A DNA stretch of 64,000 nt, taken from Balnearium lithotrophicum (lineage in GTDB: Bacteria > Aquificota > Aquificia > Desulfurobacteriales > Desulfurobacteriaceae). Shown here one piece after another: positions 3,889-12,686 of this stretch. The first letter of the stretch is position 1. Each line of letters begins with the position of its first letter. Location of the stretch: NCBI RefSeq assembly GCF_900182585.1, contig NZ_FXTM01000004.1:1-64000 (forward strand), given 5' to 3'. The notes under the pieces are model-generated. The model worked only from the letters and a program-made list of their open reading frames with translations, did not search any database and was not told the DNA's origin. The position numbers and the translations under genes were made by a program.

Positions 3889-6800
3889 ATGGGAAAAGTC
3901 CAAAAAGTAGCTCCCTCCAAGGAAAAAGAAAGGATAACTTCACTTCCAAGAAAGAGTTTCTCTAAAAGAAAGGAAACTTTTCCTGTTCCCGATTTACTTC
4001 AGTTTCCATTTGAATCTTACGAGCGCTTCCTCCAGTTGAATAAACCACCCCATGAAAGAGAAAACGTAGGTCTTGAGTCAGCTTTCAGACAGGCCTTTCC
4101 AATAGTGGATGAATCAACAGGAGTTGAAATTCACTACAAAGGGTACGAAATAGGTGATTGGTACTGTAAGTGTGGAAGATTTCAGGGTCTTGGTGGAAAG
4201 GGAGTAGTTTGTCCAAAGTGTGGAATGGAAGTCGTTTTCCGTCCAACTTATACTCCAGATGAGTGTAAGGAGAGGGGAATTACTTACAGTGCTCCATTGA
4301 GGGTTCTTTTTGAACTCCACGTCTGGCAGAAGGACCCAAAAACCGGGGAGAAGATTGCTCCGATTATTAAAGAAAACAAGATGTACTTCGGTGAAATTCC
4401 GTTAATGACCGATAGGGCTACGTTTATCATAAATGGAACTGAAAAAGTAGTTGTAAGTCAGCTCCACCGCTCTCCGGGACTCTTCTTCAAGAGTGAAGTT
4501 TCAAAAACCACACAGGTTGCTAGAATTATTGACATAGCAAGCATCATTCCTGCAATGGGTTCATGGCTTGAATTTGAGATTCCTCACAACGATATCCTCT
4601 ATGCAAAAATAGATAGAAAGAGGAGGTTTGTAGGAACTTACCTTCTAAGGGCTTTTGGATTAAGAACCGATGAGGAGATATTAGATGTATTCTGTAAGGA
4701 TGCTATAGAGACGTTAAAGGTTTTAAACGGTGAAATAGTCGATTCAGAAACGGGAGAGGTTAAAACACCTGAGGAACTCTCAGACTACTATCTGGTCAGT
4801 GACATTGTTGACCCTGAAACAGGAGAGATTATTCAGGAGGCCTACGAGGAACTCTCTCTTAGCTCGAGAAAGCTTCCTGAAGGAGCCGAGTTTAAGGCAA
4901 TAAGTAAGAGGAAGAGTCCTTACGGTGCTGTAATTGTCAATACCCTTAGAAAGGAGAAGAGGGATAAGGTAAGGGAAAAGGTTGAGGATTCCTTAGTAGC
5001 TGCGTACATAGAAATCTTTAGAAAGGTAAGGCCTGGGGATACTGCTACTGTTGAAGGGGCAAAGAACCTCTTTGAATCAATGTTCTTCAGCTCTAAGAAC
5101 TACGACCTTTCAAGGGTTGGAAGGGCCAAAATTAACGAAAAGATTTATCCAAAGGAAAAGCTTGAAAAGTTAACTAAGGATGACCTTAAAAATATTGAGT
5201 GGCTCCCCCCTCTAAGGGTTAGGGAAGATATCCTCAATGAGGAAGGCGAAATTGTAGTTCCTGCAGGAACACTTATAACTCCTGAAGTTGCCCTTAAACT
5301 ATCCGTCCTGAACAGAGATGAGATTCCTGTTGAACCGGACTACGATGAGGCAGGTAGGCTTCTCCATAAGGCAGACATTGTTGGGGCTGTAAAGGCTTTG
5401 ATAGAGGTTCATGCGGAGCTCCGCCCCTACGACGATATAGACCACTTGGGAAACAGGCGTGTTAGGGGAGTCGGAGAGCTTGCTGAGATTGCCTTTAAGT
5501 CTGGACTCTTTAAGATAGAGAAGGCCGTTAAGGAAAAGCTTGCAACTGCAGATATCGATTCTGTTATGCCTCAGGACCTCATAAATCCAAGAACTGCCCT
5601 CAACCCACTCAGGGAGTTCTTCACCCTTACCTCGCTCTGCCAGTTTATGGACCAGACAAATCCACTTGCAGAGACAACCCATAAGAGAAGGCTTTCCGCT
5701 TTAGGTCCTGGAGGACTAACTAGGGAAAGGGCAGGATTTGAAGTTCGTGACGTCCACCCTTCACACTACGGAAGAATCTGTCCTATTGAGACTCCAGAGG
5801 GACAGAACATCGGTCTTATAAATTCCCTCACAACCTATGGGAGAATAAACTGGTTAGGGTTCTTAGAAACTCCATACAGAAAGGTGGTGGACGGTAGAGT
5901 AACCGATGAAATCGTCTATATGACTGCGGATGAGGAGGAGAACTACGTTATTGCTCAGGCAAACGCACCTGTTGATGAAAACGGCTACATAACTGCCGAC
6001 ACAGTTATGGCCCGCCACAAGGCGGAGTTCAAGCTTGTCAAGAGGGAAGAAGTTCAGTTTATGGACGTTTCACCTAAACAGGTGTTCTCAGTTTCATCCT
6101 CCCTCATTCCGTTTTTGGAGCATGACGACGCCAACCGTGCCCTTATGGGTTCAAACATGCAACGTCAGGCCGTTCCTCTCATCAAGACGGAGGCTCCATT
6201 CGTTGGAACAGGAATGGAGAAGGAGGTTGCACTCTACAGCCGCTCCGCTGTTGTTGCAAAGCGCTCAGGGATTGTTGAGAGTGTAACTGCTGACAAGATA
6301 ATAATCAGAGTTGACCAGGAGGAGCTTGAAGAGGGAGGACTCTCCGTTGATACCGGATTTGACGTTTACAACCTCAAAAAGTTCCAGAAGTCAAACCAGA
6401 AGACCTGTATAAACCAGAAACCAATCGTTAAGAAAGGACAGAGGGTTAAAAAAGGACAGATAATAGCTGATGGTCCCTCCATGGAAAATGGAGAACTGGC
6501 ACTGGGTAAAAACGTTTTGGTTGCCTTCATGCCGTGGAGGGGATACAACTTTGAGGACGCTATCTTAGTTAGCGAGAGGCTTCTGAAGGAGGACGTTTAT
6601 ACGTCAATTCACATTCAGGAGTTTGAGTGTGAAGCTGTTGAGACGAAGTTAGGAAGGGAAGAAATAACCCGCGATATTCCAAACGTTTCCGAAAAAGCAC
6701 TTAGGAACCTTGACGAGTCTGGAATAGTTAGAATTGGAACCTACGTAAAGCCCGGGGATATCTTAGTCGGAAAAGTTACGCCTAAAGGAGAGCAGGTTCT

Positions 6801-8220
6801 CACTCCTGAGGAAAAGCTCCTTCAGGCAATCTTTGGTGAAAAGGCAAAGGGGGTAAAGGATACCTCCCTAAGAGTTCCCCACGGTGTTGAGGGAGTTGTT
6901 ATAGATGTGAAGATTCTATCCAGAAAGGGAGAGATAAAGGACCCAAGAACTCAGCTCATTGAGGCCGAGGAAAAGGCCAAGCTTGAAAGGGAGAAACAGG
7001 AAGAGATAGAGCTCATTAAGAGGGATAGGGACAGGAAGGCTGCGGAGTTAATCCTCGGAAAGAGAGTAAGGGAAGACGTCTACGATGCAGCAGGGAAGTT
7101 GATTATTTCCTCTGGAGAGGAGATAACTGAGGATAAGGTCAATGAACTTGTCTTCTTTGCCCTCAGAAAGCCGTCAATAATAGATGACGAAGAGGTAGCT
7201 CAGGAACTCAAGAAGATAAGGCTCTCTGCTGTGGATAAGATTGCCCTCGTTGAGAACATCTACGAGGAGAAGAAGGCTGCTATTGAAATGGGTCATGAGC
7301 TTCCTCCAGGGGTTAACAAGAAGGTTAAAGTTTACATAGCCACAAAGCGTAAGCTTACAATTGGTGATAAAATGTCCGGTCGCCACGGTAACAAGGGGGT
7401 TATCTCCCAAATTAGACCTGTTGAGGACATGCCCTTCTTGGAGGATGGAACTCCAATTGACATAGTCCTCAACCCTCTCGGTGTTCCTTCCCGTATGAAC
7501 GTCGGACAGATTCTTGAGGTTCACTTAGGTCTTGCAGCTAAGGCCTTAGGTAGGAAAATTGAAGAGTTAATGAAGGTAGGCCTTGAGAAGGTAAGGGAGG
7601 AGATTAAGGCTATTTACAACGATGAGAGAATAAGCAAGCTGATTGATTCCCTCTCAGACGATGAACTTAGAGAGGTAGCCAAGAAGTTAAGTAACGGAAT
7701 TAGGTTTGAATCTCCTATCTTTGATGGAGCAAAGGAGGAGGAGATAAAGGCTCTCTTGAGGAGAGCAGGTCTTCCTGAGACAGGACAGCTTACAGTTTAC
7801 GATGGTCTAACGGGAGAGCCTTTTGACCAGGACGTTACCGTCGGTTACATGTACATGCTTAAGCTCATACACCTTGCCGACGACAAGATTCACGCCCGTT
7901 CTACAGGTCCTTACTCACTGATTACTCAACAGCCATTAGGTGGTAAGGCCCAGTTTGGCGGTCAGAGATTCGGTGAAATGGAGGTTTGGGCCCTTGAGGC
8001 TTACGGAGCTGCCTATACGCTCCAGGAGATGCTAACTGTTAAGTCTGATGACGTTGAAGGACGTTCAAGGGTTTACGAGGCGATTGTTAAGGGTAAGTAC
8101 TCCTTTGAGCCAAGTCTTCCTGAGTCCTTCAACGTTTTAGTAAGGGAGCTTAAGGCTCTGGCCTTGGATGTTAAGTTTATAAAGGAGTTAGAGGAAGAAG
8201 AGGGAGAAACTAACGCTTAA
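3889..8220 (+). CDS. rpoB: DNA-directed RNA polymerase subunit beta
   Basis: A 1443-residue beta subunit of RNA polymerase. Recognisable blocks are [32 protein letters not shown], the rifampicin-region [45 protein letters not shown] in the active-centre region, and the C-terminal [27 protein letters not shown] clamp segment. Unusual is an insert near the N-terminus with C93, C95, C108 and C111 (CxC-x12-CxxC), placed before the conserved [15 protein letters not shown] block. Its sequence and spacing closely match the zinc motif of RpoC in the next gene. The insert is seen directly; zinc binding is inferred. Confidence 0.97.
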
Positions 8221-8270: not shown

Positions 8271-11200
8271 GTGAGTAAGAGAGAGATTGTTTTCTCTGAA
8301 GAACCTAAAACTTTTGACTTTGATGCAGTTGAGATAGGTCTCGCTTCCCCTGAGCAGATTAGAGCATGGTCTCACGGTGAGGTAAAGCTCCCAGAGACCC
8401 TTAACTATAGAACCCTCAATCCGGAAAGGGACGGTCTCTTCTGTGCAAGAATCTTTGGTCCTGTAAGGGACTGGGAGTGTCTCTGTGGAAAGTACAGGGG
8501 TTCAAAATATGCGGGCGTTATCTGTGATAGGTGTGGTGTAGAGGTGACCCTCTCCAAGGAGAGGAGGAGAAGGTTTGGCCACATAGAGCTTGCTGCCCCA
8601 TGTACCCACATCTGGTACGTAAAGTCCGTTCCAAGTAAAATTGGAGCTCTCTTGGGGCTCTCCGTCCGTGAGGTAGAAAGGGTCGTTTACTTTGAAAGTT
8701 ACATTGTTCTTGACCCCGGAGATGAGGAGGAAACAGGGCTTGAAAAGTTCCAGCTCCTAACTGAGGAGGAGTACAGGGAAAAGGTTGAGGAGTTGGGAGA
8801 GGATGCATTTGAGGTTGGAATCGGTGCAGAGGGGATAAAGGAGGCCCTAAAGAGGGTCAACTTGGAGGAGCTTGCAGAGGAGTTAAGGGAAGAAATCAGA
8901 ATGTACTCCGGCGAGATATCCTCAATCAACGCCGACCTTCAAAAGAGGCTTCCTAACGTATTTAAAGCAGCAGTGGATACACTCTCCTACTATACGGGGC
9001 TTTCTGAGGATACGATTGTTGGAATTGTTAAGAACGTCCTTGTTGTGGTTACAGACCCTGGAGACTCAAACCTTGAGAAGGGACAGATTATCGAGTACTC
9101 CCACTACAAGGAACTCAGGGATAAGGTTAACTTAGAGGTTGAAAAGGGCGGAAGGGCTTTAGAGTGGTACGTTGATTTCTTAGTTGAGCAGGGAAAGATT
9201 CAGAGCAAGGAGCTCTTAAAGGAGGAGATAAGGAGGGCAACGAGGAAGGATACTACAGAAGCTAAGCTCAAGAAGTTGGTTAGAAGGTTGAAGATAGTTG
9301 AGTCCTTCCTCAACTCAAACAACAAGCCTGAGTGGATGGTTCTTGAGGTTCTTCCCGTTCTTCCACCGGAGCTCCGTCCACTCGTTCCCCTTGAGGGAGG
9401 AAAGTTTGCAACTTCAGACCTTAACGACCTCTACAGGCGCGTAATAAACAGGAACAATAGGCTTAAGAGGTTAATCGAGTTAGATGCCCCCGACATTATC
9501 GTTAGAAACGAAAAGAGGATGCTTCAGGAGGCTGTAGATACGCTTATAGACAACGGAAGGAGGGGAAGACCTGTTAAGTCATCAAAGGGACATCCGTTAA
9601 AGTCCCTATCTGACGTTTTAAGGGGTAAGCAGGGAAGGTTCAGACAGAACCTCTTAGGTAAGCGTGTTGACTACTCGGGCCGTGCCGTTATCGTTGTAGG
9701 TCCGGAGCTCCAGATGCACCAGTGCGGTCTTCCAAAGATAATGGCCCTTGAGCTCTTTAAACCGTTCGTTTACAGGAGACTTGAGGAAAAGGGATACGCT
9801 AACACTGTAAAACAGGCCAAGAAGATGGTTGAAAATCAGGAGCCTGAGGTCTGGGAGTGTTTAGAGGAGGTTATTAAGGAGCACCCGGTTCTCCTCAACA
9901 GGGCACCTACACTCCACAGGGTTTCCATTCAGGCTTTTGAACCTGTTTTGGTTGAGGGTAAAGCTATACAGCTCCACCCCCTCGTCTGTACCGCCTTCAA
10001 CGCAGACTTTGACGGCGACCAGATGGCGGTTCACGTTCCACTCTCCCTCGAGGCACAACTTGAGGCCTACGCTCTGATGCTTTCAACTCAGAATATCCTC
10101 TCTCCTGCCCACGGAAAGCCCCTTGCTGTTCCATCTCAGGACATGGTTTTAGGCCTCTACTACATGACGCTTGAAAAGCCTGGAGCCAAGGGAGAAGGAA
10201 AGGCATTCTCAGACTTTGAGCAGGTACTGAAGGCCTTAGATTTAGGAGAGGTGGAGCTCCACGCAAGGATTAAAGTGAGAGTTCCTTCGAATAAGACCGA
10301 AAGCGGAAAGGAGGAAGTAGTTACTACAACAGCTGGAAGGGTGAAGTTCAACACTCTACTGCCGGAAAACTATCCGTTTGTCAACAAGGTAATGACAAAG
10401 AAGGCCGTTGCTGAGCTGATTGCAGACGTTCACAAGAGGTTTGGAAACGAAGTTACCGTCGACATGTTGGACAGGTTAAAGGAAGCTGGATTCGTTCAGG
10501 CTACACTCGGTGGTCTATCAATTGGAATAAACGACCTTCACATTCCACCGACAAAGAAGGAGCTCATTGAAAAGGCCAAAAAAGAGGTTGCAGAGATAGA
10601 GGAGGGTTACAGAAAGGGACTCCTCTCAAAGGACGAAAGGTACAATAAAATTGTTGATATATGGACGAGGGTCACCGAACAGTTGACAAAGGACATGATG
10701 GACTACATGAAGAGCCACGACCTTGACGGTAGAGGAAGGCTTCCAGACGATGGAACATTCAACCCAGTGTTCATGATGCTTACATCAGGAGCCCGTGGTA
10801 GCCAGACTCAGATTCGCCAGCTTGCAGGTATGAGAGGTCTTATGGCTAAACCTTCCGGTGAAATTATTGAGACTCCGATTATCTCCAACTTCCGTGAGGG
10901 ACTTACAGTTCTCGAGTACTTTATCTCAACCCACGGTGCAAGGAAGGGTCTTGCAGATACAGCTCTCAAAACTGCAGATGCTGGTTACCTAACACGTAGG
11001 CTTGCAGATGTTGCTCAGGACGTTCTCGTAACGATGGAGGACTGCGGATGTGAGGACGGAATTGAAGTCTCTGCACTCATAGAAGCTGGAGAGGTTGTCA
11101 TTCCGCTATCTAAGAGAATAGCGGGAAGAGTTGCTGCAGAGGACATTGTCGACCCGGTTACAGGAGAGGTTTTAGTTAAGAGAAACGAAGAAATTTCTGA

Positions 11201-12686
11201 CGAGGCTGCTCAGAGGATAGAGGACTTAGGTATAGATAAGGTAAAGATTCGCTCGGTACTTACCTGTAGAGCTCCCTTTGGAGTATGTGCCAAGTGTTAC
11301 GGAAGGGACATGGCAAGACAGAGGCCCGTTCAGTTGGGAGAGGCAGTTGGAATTATTGCTGCTCAGTCCATTGGAGAGCCGGGAACGCAGCTGACGATGC
11401 GTACGTTCCACATCGGTGGTATTGCTATGCGCGGAGCCGAGGCTTCAGAGTACAGGGCTAAGCACGACGGTATCGTCAGGATTTTCGACGTTAACGTAAT
11501 TACGGATGAGGAAGGAAGGGAAATCGTTATAAACAGGGCTGGAAAGATTGCAATAGTTGATGAGAAAACGGGTAAGCACTTGGAGAGGTACGACATCCCT
11601 TACGCTGCAGTCTTAAGGGTCAGGGATGGAGATAAGGTTCAGAAAGGTCAGATTCTTGCAGAGTGGGACCCACACGCCATTCCAATTCTCGCTCTAAGGA
11701 GCGGAACTGTTAAGTACAAGGACATCATCCCCGGAGTTACTGTTTCTGAAACTGAGCCCGTTATCCTTGAGTACAGGACTCTCCCGTACGAGCCTACGAT
11801 AGAGCTCCTTGACGATGAAGGAAACGTAGTTGACTTCTACCCACTTCCTGTCGGTGCAAGAATAATGGTTGATGAGGGAGAAAAGGTTAAGGTTGGTACC
11901 CAACTTGCAAGGCTTCCGAGGAAGATTGGAGGAACCAAAGACATTACAGGAGGTCTTCCAAGGGTTGCAGAACTCTTTGAAGCAAGGAGACCGAAGGATT
12001 CAGCCATACTAGCCGAGATAAGCGGTAAGGTCTACGTTGAGACGGAGAAGAACAAAATAGTAATCACGATTGTTGACCCTGAAACGGGAGTTAAGAGGGA
12101 GTACGAAGTTCCAAAGGGTAAGTACGTATACGTTAGAACTGGTGACTTTGTTAGGGCTGGAGAACCTCTAACGGATGGACAGCTCAATCCACACGATATC
12201 CTCAGCATTCTTGGAGAGAGGGCTGTTGCAAGGTTCCTCCTTGATGAGGTTCAGTCTGTCTACCGTGCTCAGGGAGTTGACATCAACGATAAGCACTTTG
12301 AGGTAATCATTAGAAAGATGCTATCAAAGGTTAGAATTGAGGACTCCGGAGATTCCAACTTCTTGGTTGAAGAGGTTGTTGACAGAGAGGAGTTTGAAAA
12401 GGTTAGGGAGAAGCTCTTTAAGGAAGGAAAGAGACCTCCAAAGGCAAGACCTGTTCTCACGGGAATTACGAAGGCTGCCCTATCAACAGAGTCCTTCATC
12501 TCTGCTGCTTCGTTCCAGGAAACAACGAGGGTTCTCTCTGAAGCTGCCATTGCAGGTAAGAGGGACTACTTGAGGGGTCTCAAGGAGAACGTAATAATCG
12601 GAAGGCTCATTCCTGCTGGAACGGGTAGGAAGGAGTACAGAAAGGTTACCTGGGACTACTGTGAAAGTTCTGAAAAAGCCGAATAG
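8271..12686 (+). CDS. rpoC: DNA-directed RNA polymerase subunit beta'
   Basis: A 1471-residue beta' subunit. The N-terminal zinc motif is C70, C72, C85, C88. The catalytic magnesium motif NADFDGD lies at residues 577-583. The trigger/bridge region shows [21 protein letters not shown]. The second zinc site includes CGCEDG and [13 protein letters not shown]. The C-terminus holds GEPLTDG and [10 protein letters not shown]. The start is GTG 8271, seven bases after AGGAGG. It forms an operon with rpoB and ends at a strong terminator. Confidence 0.97.

Follow-up and report, generated by a model that had tools for sequence, protein, structure and literature searches.

The window, that is, the whole stretch of DNA that was analysed (64,000 nucleotides of Balnearium lithotrophicum), carries adjacent genes for the beta and beta' subunits of RNA polymerase, and both encoded proteins contain the same spacing of 4 cysteines. 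The features on which the analysis turns are the following:

3889..8220, + strand: rpoB, RNA polymerase beta subunit, 1443 aa, with Pfam Rpb2 domains
4159..4239, + strand: ribbon insert in the beta1-lobe, RpoB 91-117, 27 residues beyond E. coli beta (gap between two phmmer stretches; AlphaFold2 pLDDT)
4165..4173, + strand: first knuckle, C93-K-C95 of RpoB (motif scan)
4210..4221, + strand: second knuckle, C108-P-K-C111 of RpoB (motif scan)
4264..4266, + strand: C126 of RpoB, an ordinary DEC motif cysteine outside the ribbon (E. coli shares this 'EC' cysteine)
8271..12686, + strand: rpoC, RNA polymerase beta' subunit (Pfam)
8478..8534, + strand: ligands of the RpoC zinc-binding domain (ZBD), C70-L-C72-x12-C85-D-R-C88 (motif scan)

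An earlier note, made from the letters of the window, had pointed to C93, C95, C108, and C111 of RpoB, to their identical spacing in RpoC, to the lack of such cysteines in E. coli RpoB, and to a position in the lobe or protrusion, and all 4 statements were borne out. The pattern C-x-C-x12-C-x2-C is fitted by RpoB 93-111 (4165-4221) and RpoC 70-88, and no third match was found in the 36,740 residues of the window's open frames of at least 60 aa; the chance expectation, calculated from RpoB's own cysteine frequency, is about 3e-6 per RpoB. phmmer aligned E. coli beta 47-77 with window RpoB 60-90 and E. coli beta 77-101 with RpoB 118-142, and because these stretches leave a gap between residues 90 and 118, RpoB 91-117 are extra residues, located in the protrusion (beta1-lobe) just past the position that corresponds to E. 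coli beta residue 77. The phmmer alignment with one Thermus chain runs to Thermus residue 75, the same break point. At the equivalent site of the aligned region, E. coli RpoB has none of the 4 ribbon cysteines.

To place the insert among relatives, we read RpoB from the phylum group of the window, which comprises 136 genomes, 122 of which match the RpoB N-terminus. The set consists of 118 loci from 117 of these 122 genomes (G081 contributing two) and of S016_44, a metagenome-assembled genome (MAG) with the NCBI name Aquificota that belongs to another phylum in the classification scheme used here, giving 119 loci; left out were G100, G074 (one weak match), and G020, G037, and G130, the listed matches of which miss the region. 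The earlier note had made its reading depend on conservation of the cysteines in close relatives, and both knuckles, with all 4 cysteines, are kept in 119 of the 119 Aquificota-labelled loci (118 of 118 without S016_44). The spacing C-1-C-12-C-2-C (the CxC form) occurs in the groups f1 (20 loci) and f2 (1 locus) and in S016_44, whereas f3, f4, and f5 have CxxC with 15 or 17 residues between the knuckles, and in seven loci of f4 a knuckle is extended (CPKKGC, CNNHDC, and similar). Retention of 4 cysteines while the spacing varies is the pattern that would be expected of a metal site. A sequencing or assembly artefact was rejected because the insert recurs across 117 Aquificota assemblies and many others. 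G081, an f4 assembly, has two copies of the RpoB N-terminus, on contigs C21 and C64, and is perhaps a strain mixture.

A separate cysteine motif was observed in NusG (693-1430), which has a domain II insertion (Pfam NusG_II) with C-x-C-x4-C-x14-C at about residues 92-114. These 4 cysteines are kept in 13 of the 14 loci read, out of 24 and with the window included (12 of 13 in f1, and the one in f2); NusG of L332 has two of the four.

Beyond Aquificota, 281 of the 297 genomes drawn from Acidobacteriota gave a match, and 50 loci were read: the top 30 and a further 20 selected among the lower-ranked matches listed. In 47 of the 50, a ribbon of the form C-x-C-x12-C-x(2 or 4)-C is followed by a second one, C-x2-C-x10-C-x2-C; the exceptions are L190, with an insert devoid of cysteines, L189, with a single cysteine, and L306, which is partly degraded. 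The two acidobacterial ribbons would lie in tandem. A nested arrangement was considered and dropped, as RpoC matches knuckles 1 and 2 without gaps and a double-zinc-ribbon protein matches knuckles 3 and 4. A DNA pattern scan of named genomes, in which the acidobacterial insert came to light, yielded at least 120 loci, a set biased towards carriers because the pattern required C..CG before TY.[AV]P; among them are 4 Aquificota, 114 loci with both ribbons, and one hybrid (L040), and L104 lay outside the automated parse, with the ribbon visible in its sequence. The hybrid, from an Acidobacteria MAG, seems to have knuckle 1 of ribbon 1 joined to knuckle 4 of ribbon 2, with the middle replaced. One genome labelled Acidimicrobiia (G445) has a single RpoB locus, L148, of the acidobacterial type with the double ribbon, and is perhaps mislabelled.

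In the phylum of S016_44, presumably Thermosulfidibacterota (a guess on our part), all 9 genomes match RpoB, and C-1-C-12-C-2-C is present in each of the 8 complete regions, one of them from S016_44 itself, which is also among the 119 Aquificota-labelled loci. A wider draw around S016_44 took in 290 genomes, 283 of them matching, from which 78 loci, chosen partly by score, were read. CxC-x12-CxxC is present in 14 (two of them Aquificota) and the double ribbon in 4 (one from the earlier acidobacterial set); 4 have the insert with all four cysteines gone (L413-L416), and 3 have a different cysteine cluster, CxxCP...C...C...C, at the same RpoB site (L422, L423, and L428, which group together on the tree with support 92). 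The remaining 53 of the 78, like E. coli, have no insert at this site. The earlier note had suggested a zinc ribbon gained in beta; a gain in the lineage of the window is contradicted by the presence of the insert in Acidobacteriota, in the third phylum, and in further lineages: the insert is wider in bacteria than Aquificota and is not an Aquificota novelty. Scans of viral contigs found no relatives. In a plasmid search, 18 of the 20 listed of 22 records are proteobacterial, with a tract of 51-59 codons for 79-87 query residues, which leaves no room for the insert; Streptomyces (a partial match) and Collinsella (a beta' match) account for the remaining two listed. The open frames over the RpoB match in G485, G549, G684, G482, and G537 are about 2500-2900 aa long, which suggests fused RpoB-RpoC.

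The insert is predicted with confidence: in the AlphaFold2 model of RpoB 1-619 (58 sequences; mean pLDDT 85.2), the residue blocks 91-120 reach 89-92. All 50 rows shown in a Foldseek search with this model are bacterial polymerase entries. The ribbon modelled alone (45 residues) has a mean pLDDT of 76, with residues 11-40 at 85-88, and a pTM of 0.51, and a Foldseek search with it returned no significant match, all rows having E of at least 0.94. RpoC chains stand first to third among these rows (TMq 0.32-0.41, rmsd mostly near 5), Nob1 is superposed better than the RpoC rows (TMq 0.49, rmsd 2.7), and further rows are adenylate kinase, Pol II chain L, which we take to be Rpb12, and Nop10. VIA-align of the ribbon model listed Nob1 alone (Z 2.1, rmsd 2.9, 35 aligned) and no RpoC chain.

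The ribbons were also compared by sequence with the PDB. Counted in rows that are not independent, since many are near-identical RpoC sequences, RpoC made up 59 of the best 60 of 86 rows for the 33-residue window ribbon (E 4.8e-5), all of the best 60 of 164 for profile A1 of CxC ribbons (E 9.2e-7), the first 39 of the best 60 of 95 for the profile of acidobacterial ribbon 1 (E 0.0053), and all of the best 60 of 66 for the CxC profile of further lineages (E 0.003). The RpoC rows of the window-ribbon search are beta' or gamma chains, a few of which were filed as beta by their depositors; the top row is a multi-finger chain in which no single stretch reaches significance. hhalign of the CxC profiles with RpoC gave 97.6, 95.9, and 96.4 percent over 30-31 ungapped columns. 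In a shuffling test against RpoC that kept the cysteines and knuckle glycines in place, none of 20,000 shuffles scored as well as the f1 and f2 ribbons, and the other ribbons gave p values from 0.0002 to 0.17, with no clear win over the shuffles for L185 (0.11, 0.04, and 0.005 against three RpoC), L054, L367 (0.09), L417 (0.17), and L412 (0.04). In a search with full RpoB, every listed match other than to pieces of RpoB fell on query residues 88-117 and in a frame of 1474-1494 aa, the size of RpoC.

The spacing of RpoC is found in the window, f1, f2, the third phylum, ribbon 1 of Acidobacteriota, and further lineages, and not in f3-f5. In the CxC form, unlike the CxxC form, the similarity to RpoC extends beyond the ligands and above that to other ribbons. 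The f3-f5 ribbon instead matches archaeal Rpo12 (E 8.9e-6), with no RpoC among the 54 rows of its search, and hhalign gives its profile 96.4 percent to Rpo12 versus 80.4, with gaps, to RpoC. Over both knuckles the match to Rpo12 belongs to the f3-f5 type, the CxC type having none. RpoC and Rpo12 score 13.1 percent with each other, i.e., RpoC itself is unlike Rpo12; because f3-f5 matches Rpo12 and RpoC does not, a short ribbon at one site can evidently drift to the look of another family.

The tree of RpoB was first built with the insert removed. On it, f3-f5 form one clade (support 100), f1 and f2 another (99), and Acidobacteriota another (99), and S016_44, which is weakly placed, groups apart from the rest of the Aquificota rows. 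CxC ribbons occur on either side of the tree, whereas CxxC is confined to a single clade with support 100; the CxC form, which is the commonest and has the RpoC spacing, is therefore probably ancestral, with CxxC derived once. On a wider tree of 94 rows and 214 columns, in which 43 of 90 inner branches are open and long branches are flagged, six changes are needed for presence of the insert (the starred branches force the label 'none' to change just once) and three for the rows devoid of cysteines, two of these being forced by starred branches.

We consider it very probable, judging from the sequences, that the insert is a zinc site. That the cysteines hold another ligand (an iron-sulfur cluster, for example) or are joined in disulfides seems decidedly improbable: the CxxCP...C...C...C cluster of L422, L423, and L428, which is no standard ribbon, would suit such a role, but the knuckles are otherwise paired CxC/CxxC and mostly followed by glycine, and the sequence matches are zinc ribbons and zinc fingers, proteins that bind zinc. 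The origin of the ribbon is harder to call. We hold the chances of descent from RpoC to be evenly divided, and so is our judgement of the joint claim of a zinc ribbon with an old RpoC-type origin. The alternative of convergence, to which we assign a smaller but appreciable likelihood, supposes that insertions are tolerated in the turn that follows the YEIG-ending strand, and that a zinc ribbon of generic type either emerged or was acquired at this point and grew similar to RpoC through shared knuckles and strand patterns. It would account for the Rpo12 likeness of f3-f5, for the different cysteine cluster at the same site in L422, L423, and L428, for the six gains or losses needed on the wider tree, and for a predicted fold nearer Nob1 than RpoC. 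It sits less well with the recurrence of CxC-x12-CxxC in Desulfurobacteriales-type f1 and in f2, the third phylum, Acidobacteriota, and further lineages, with the rank of RpoC (first for three profiles, second for the window ribbon behind the multi-finger chain), with a similarity to RpoC that persists outside the cysteines and glycines, and with the one change of the label 'none' that the starred branches force. Between copy and convergence, copying is slightly favoured. Any copying would be old, since the window ribbon is about equally identical to its own RpoC (11/25) and to E. coli RpoC (12/25); a recent copy or gene conversion from the adjacent rpoC was rejected on the same grounds. The description of the motif in the earlier note as copy-like thus stands as to sequence, which is RpoC-like beyond the ligands, and falls as to a recent copy. 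Its proposed derivation "from beta' or by convergence" draws support on the former side from the RpoC likeness of the CxC form and is weakened there by the Rpo12-like f3-f5 and by a model that superposes poorly on RpoC.

The copying scenario, which we put forward tentatively and at slightly less than an even chance as a whole, is that the beta' zinc-binding domain was copied into the beta1-lobe before Acidobacteriota, Aquificota, and several other lineages split. In the same scenario, some lineages would afterwards have lost the copy, Acidobacteriota would have added a second ribbon to it, its cysteines would have disappeared on more than one occasion, and in one Aquificota clade it would have taken on an Rpo12-like form. 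Built into a hairpin of the beta1-lobe, the structural ribbon would form a rigid, zinc-stiffened extension, giving the enzyme an added point of contact close to the upstream portion of the transcription bubble. It might touch DNA, sigma, or a factor there, in the way that the beta' ZBD presents a contact surface at another place on the enzyme. Mean net charges of the ribbon are +3.8 in f1, +2.7 in acidobacterial ribbon 1, +0.9 in f4, +0.1 in f3, and -1.3 in f5, an unevenness that does not favour one general nucleic-acid contact and makes shape or a protein contact as likely. The same uneven charge could be read as a sign that the insert solely stabilises the beta1-lobe, contacting neither nucleic acid nor factor, as could the lineages that keep the insert and have lost the cysteines, and the thermophily of Aquificota. 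Acidobacteriota are largely mesophilic, and yet 47 of the 50 loci have two ribbons there, and the conservation of W, G, and L residues around the knuckles suggests a specific shape; stabilisation alone strikes us as somewhat doubtful, and on a contact role beyond it our opinion is equally split.

Few proteins are as conserved as RNA polymerase beta, and the model enzyme of E. coli is without a feature of some large bacterial groups. The probable zinc ribbon is conserved in the lobe bound by CarD, near the site of promoter melting, and a table in excerpts of PMC4593161 lists both Acidobacteria and Aquificae as having CarD. If the ribbon came from beta', a domain would have been transferred between two subunits of one enzyme, and if the copy reading is true, these polymerases would have related zinc ribbons in both large subunits. 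The natural variants devoid of cysteines (L413-L416 and L190; one cysteine in L189) are ready controls for the role of the metal. No description of this beta ribbon was found in the literature searched, a search with most subscription papers outside its scope, and one may be in print.

Of the known systems, the RpoC N-terminal ZBD is the nearest in sequence: the ribbon shares with it C-x-C-x12-C-x2-C, 13/27 identities in the case of the window, and the register of an aromatic residue before the first knuckle and G after it, and of V-V/I before the third cysteine and E-V after the fourth. It differs in lying in the beta1-lobe of beta and in a predicted fold that superposes poorly. According to excerpts of PMC9378689, the beta' ZBD binds putRNA where the RNA exit channel opens, whereas no such partner was found for the RpoB ribbon. 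The BEAN and HABAS insertions, described in excerpts of PMC11515920 as polyphyletic and located in beta and beta', resemble the ribbon in these respects; words beginning with zinc, ribbon, protrusion, or cys are absent from the main text of that source. Archaeal Rpo12 / RpoP (Rpb12) is likewise a zinc ribbon of an RNA polymerase and is matched by the f3-f5 form, but it is a separate small subunit, and the CxC-type profile aligns with it over 15 columns, at the second knuckle only. Lineage-specific inserts in beta, beta-i4, i9, i11, and others, were reportedly catalogued by Lane et al. and Opalka et al. Aquificae are stated in excerpts of PMC2939025 to carry i9 and i11. Like beta-i4, i9, and i11, the ribbon is an in-frame, clade-restricted insert in beta; unlike them, it carries metal-ligand cysteines and has its site just past the counterpart of E. 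coli residue 77, closer to the N-terminus than any of the three.
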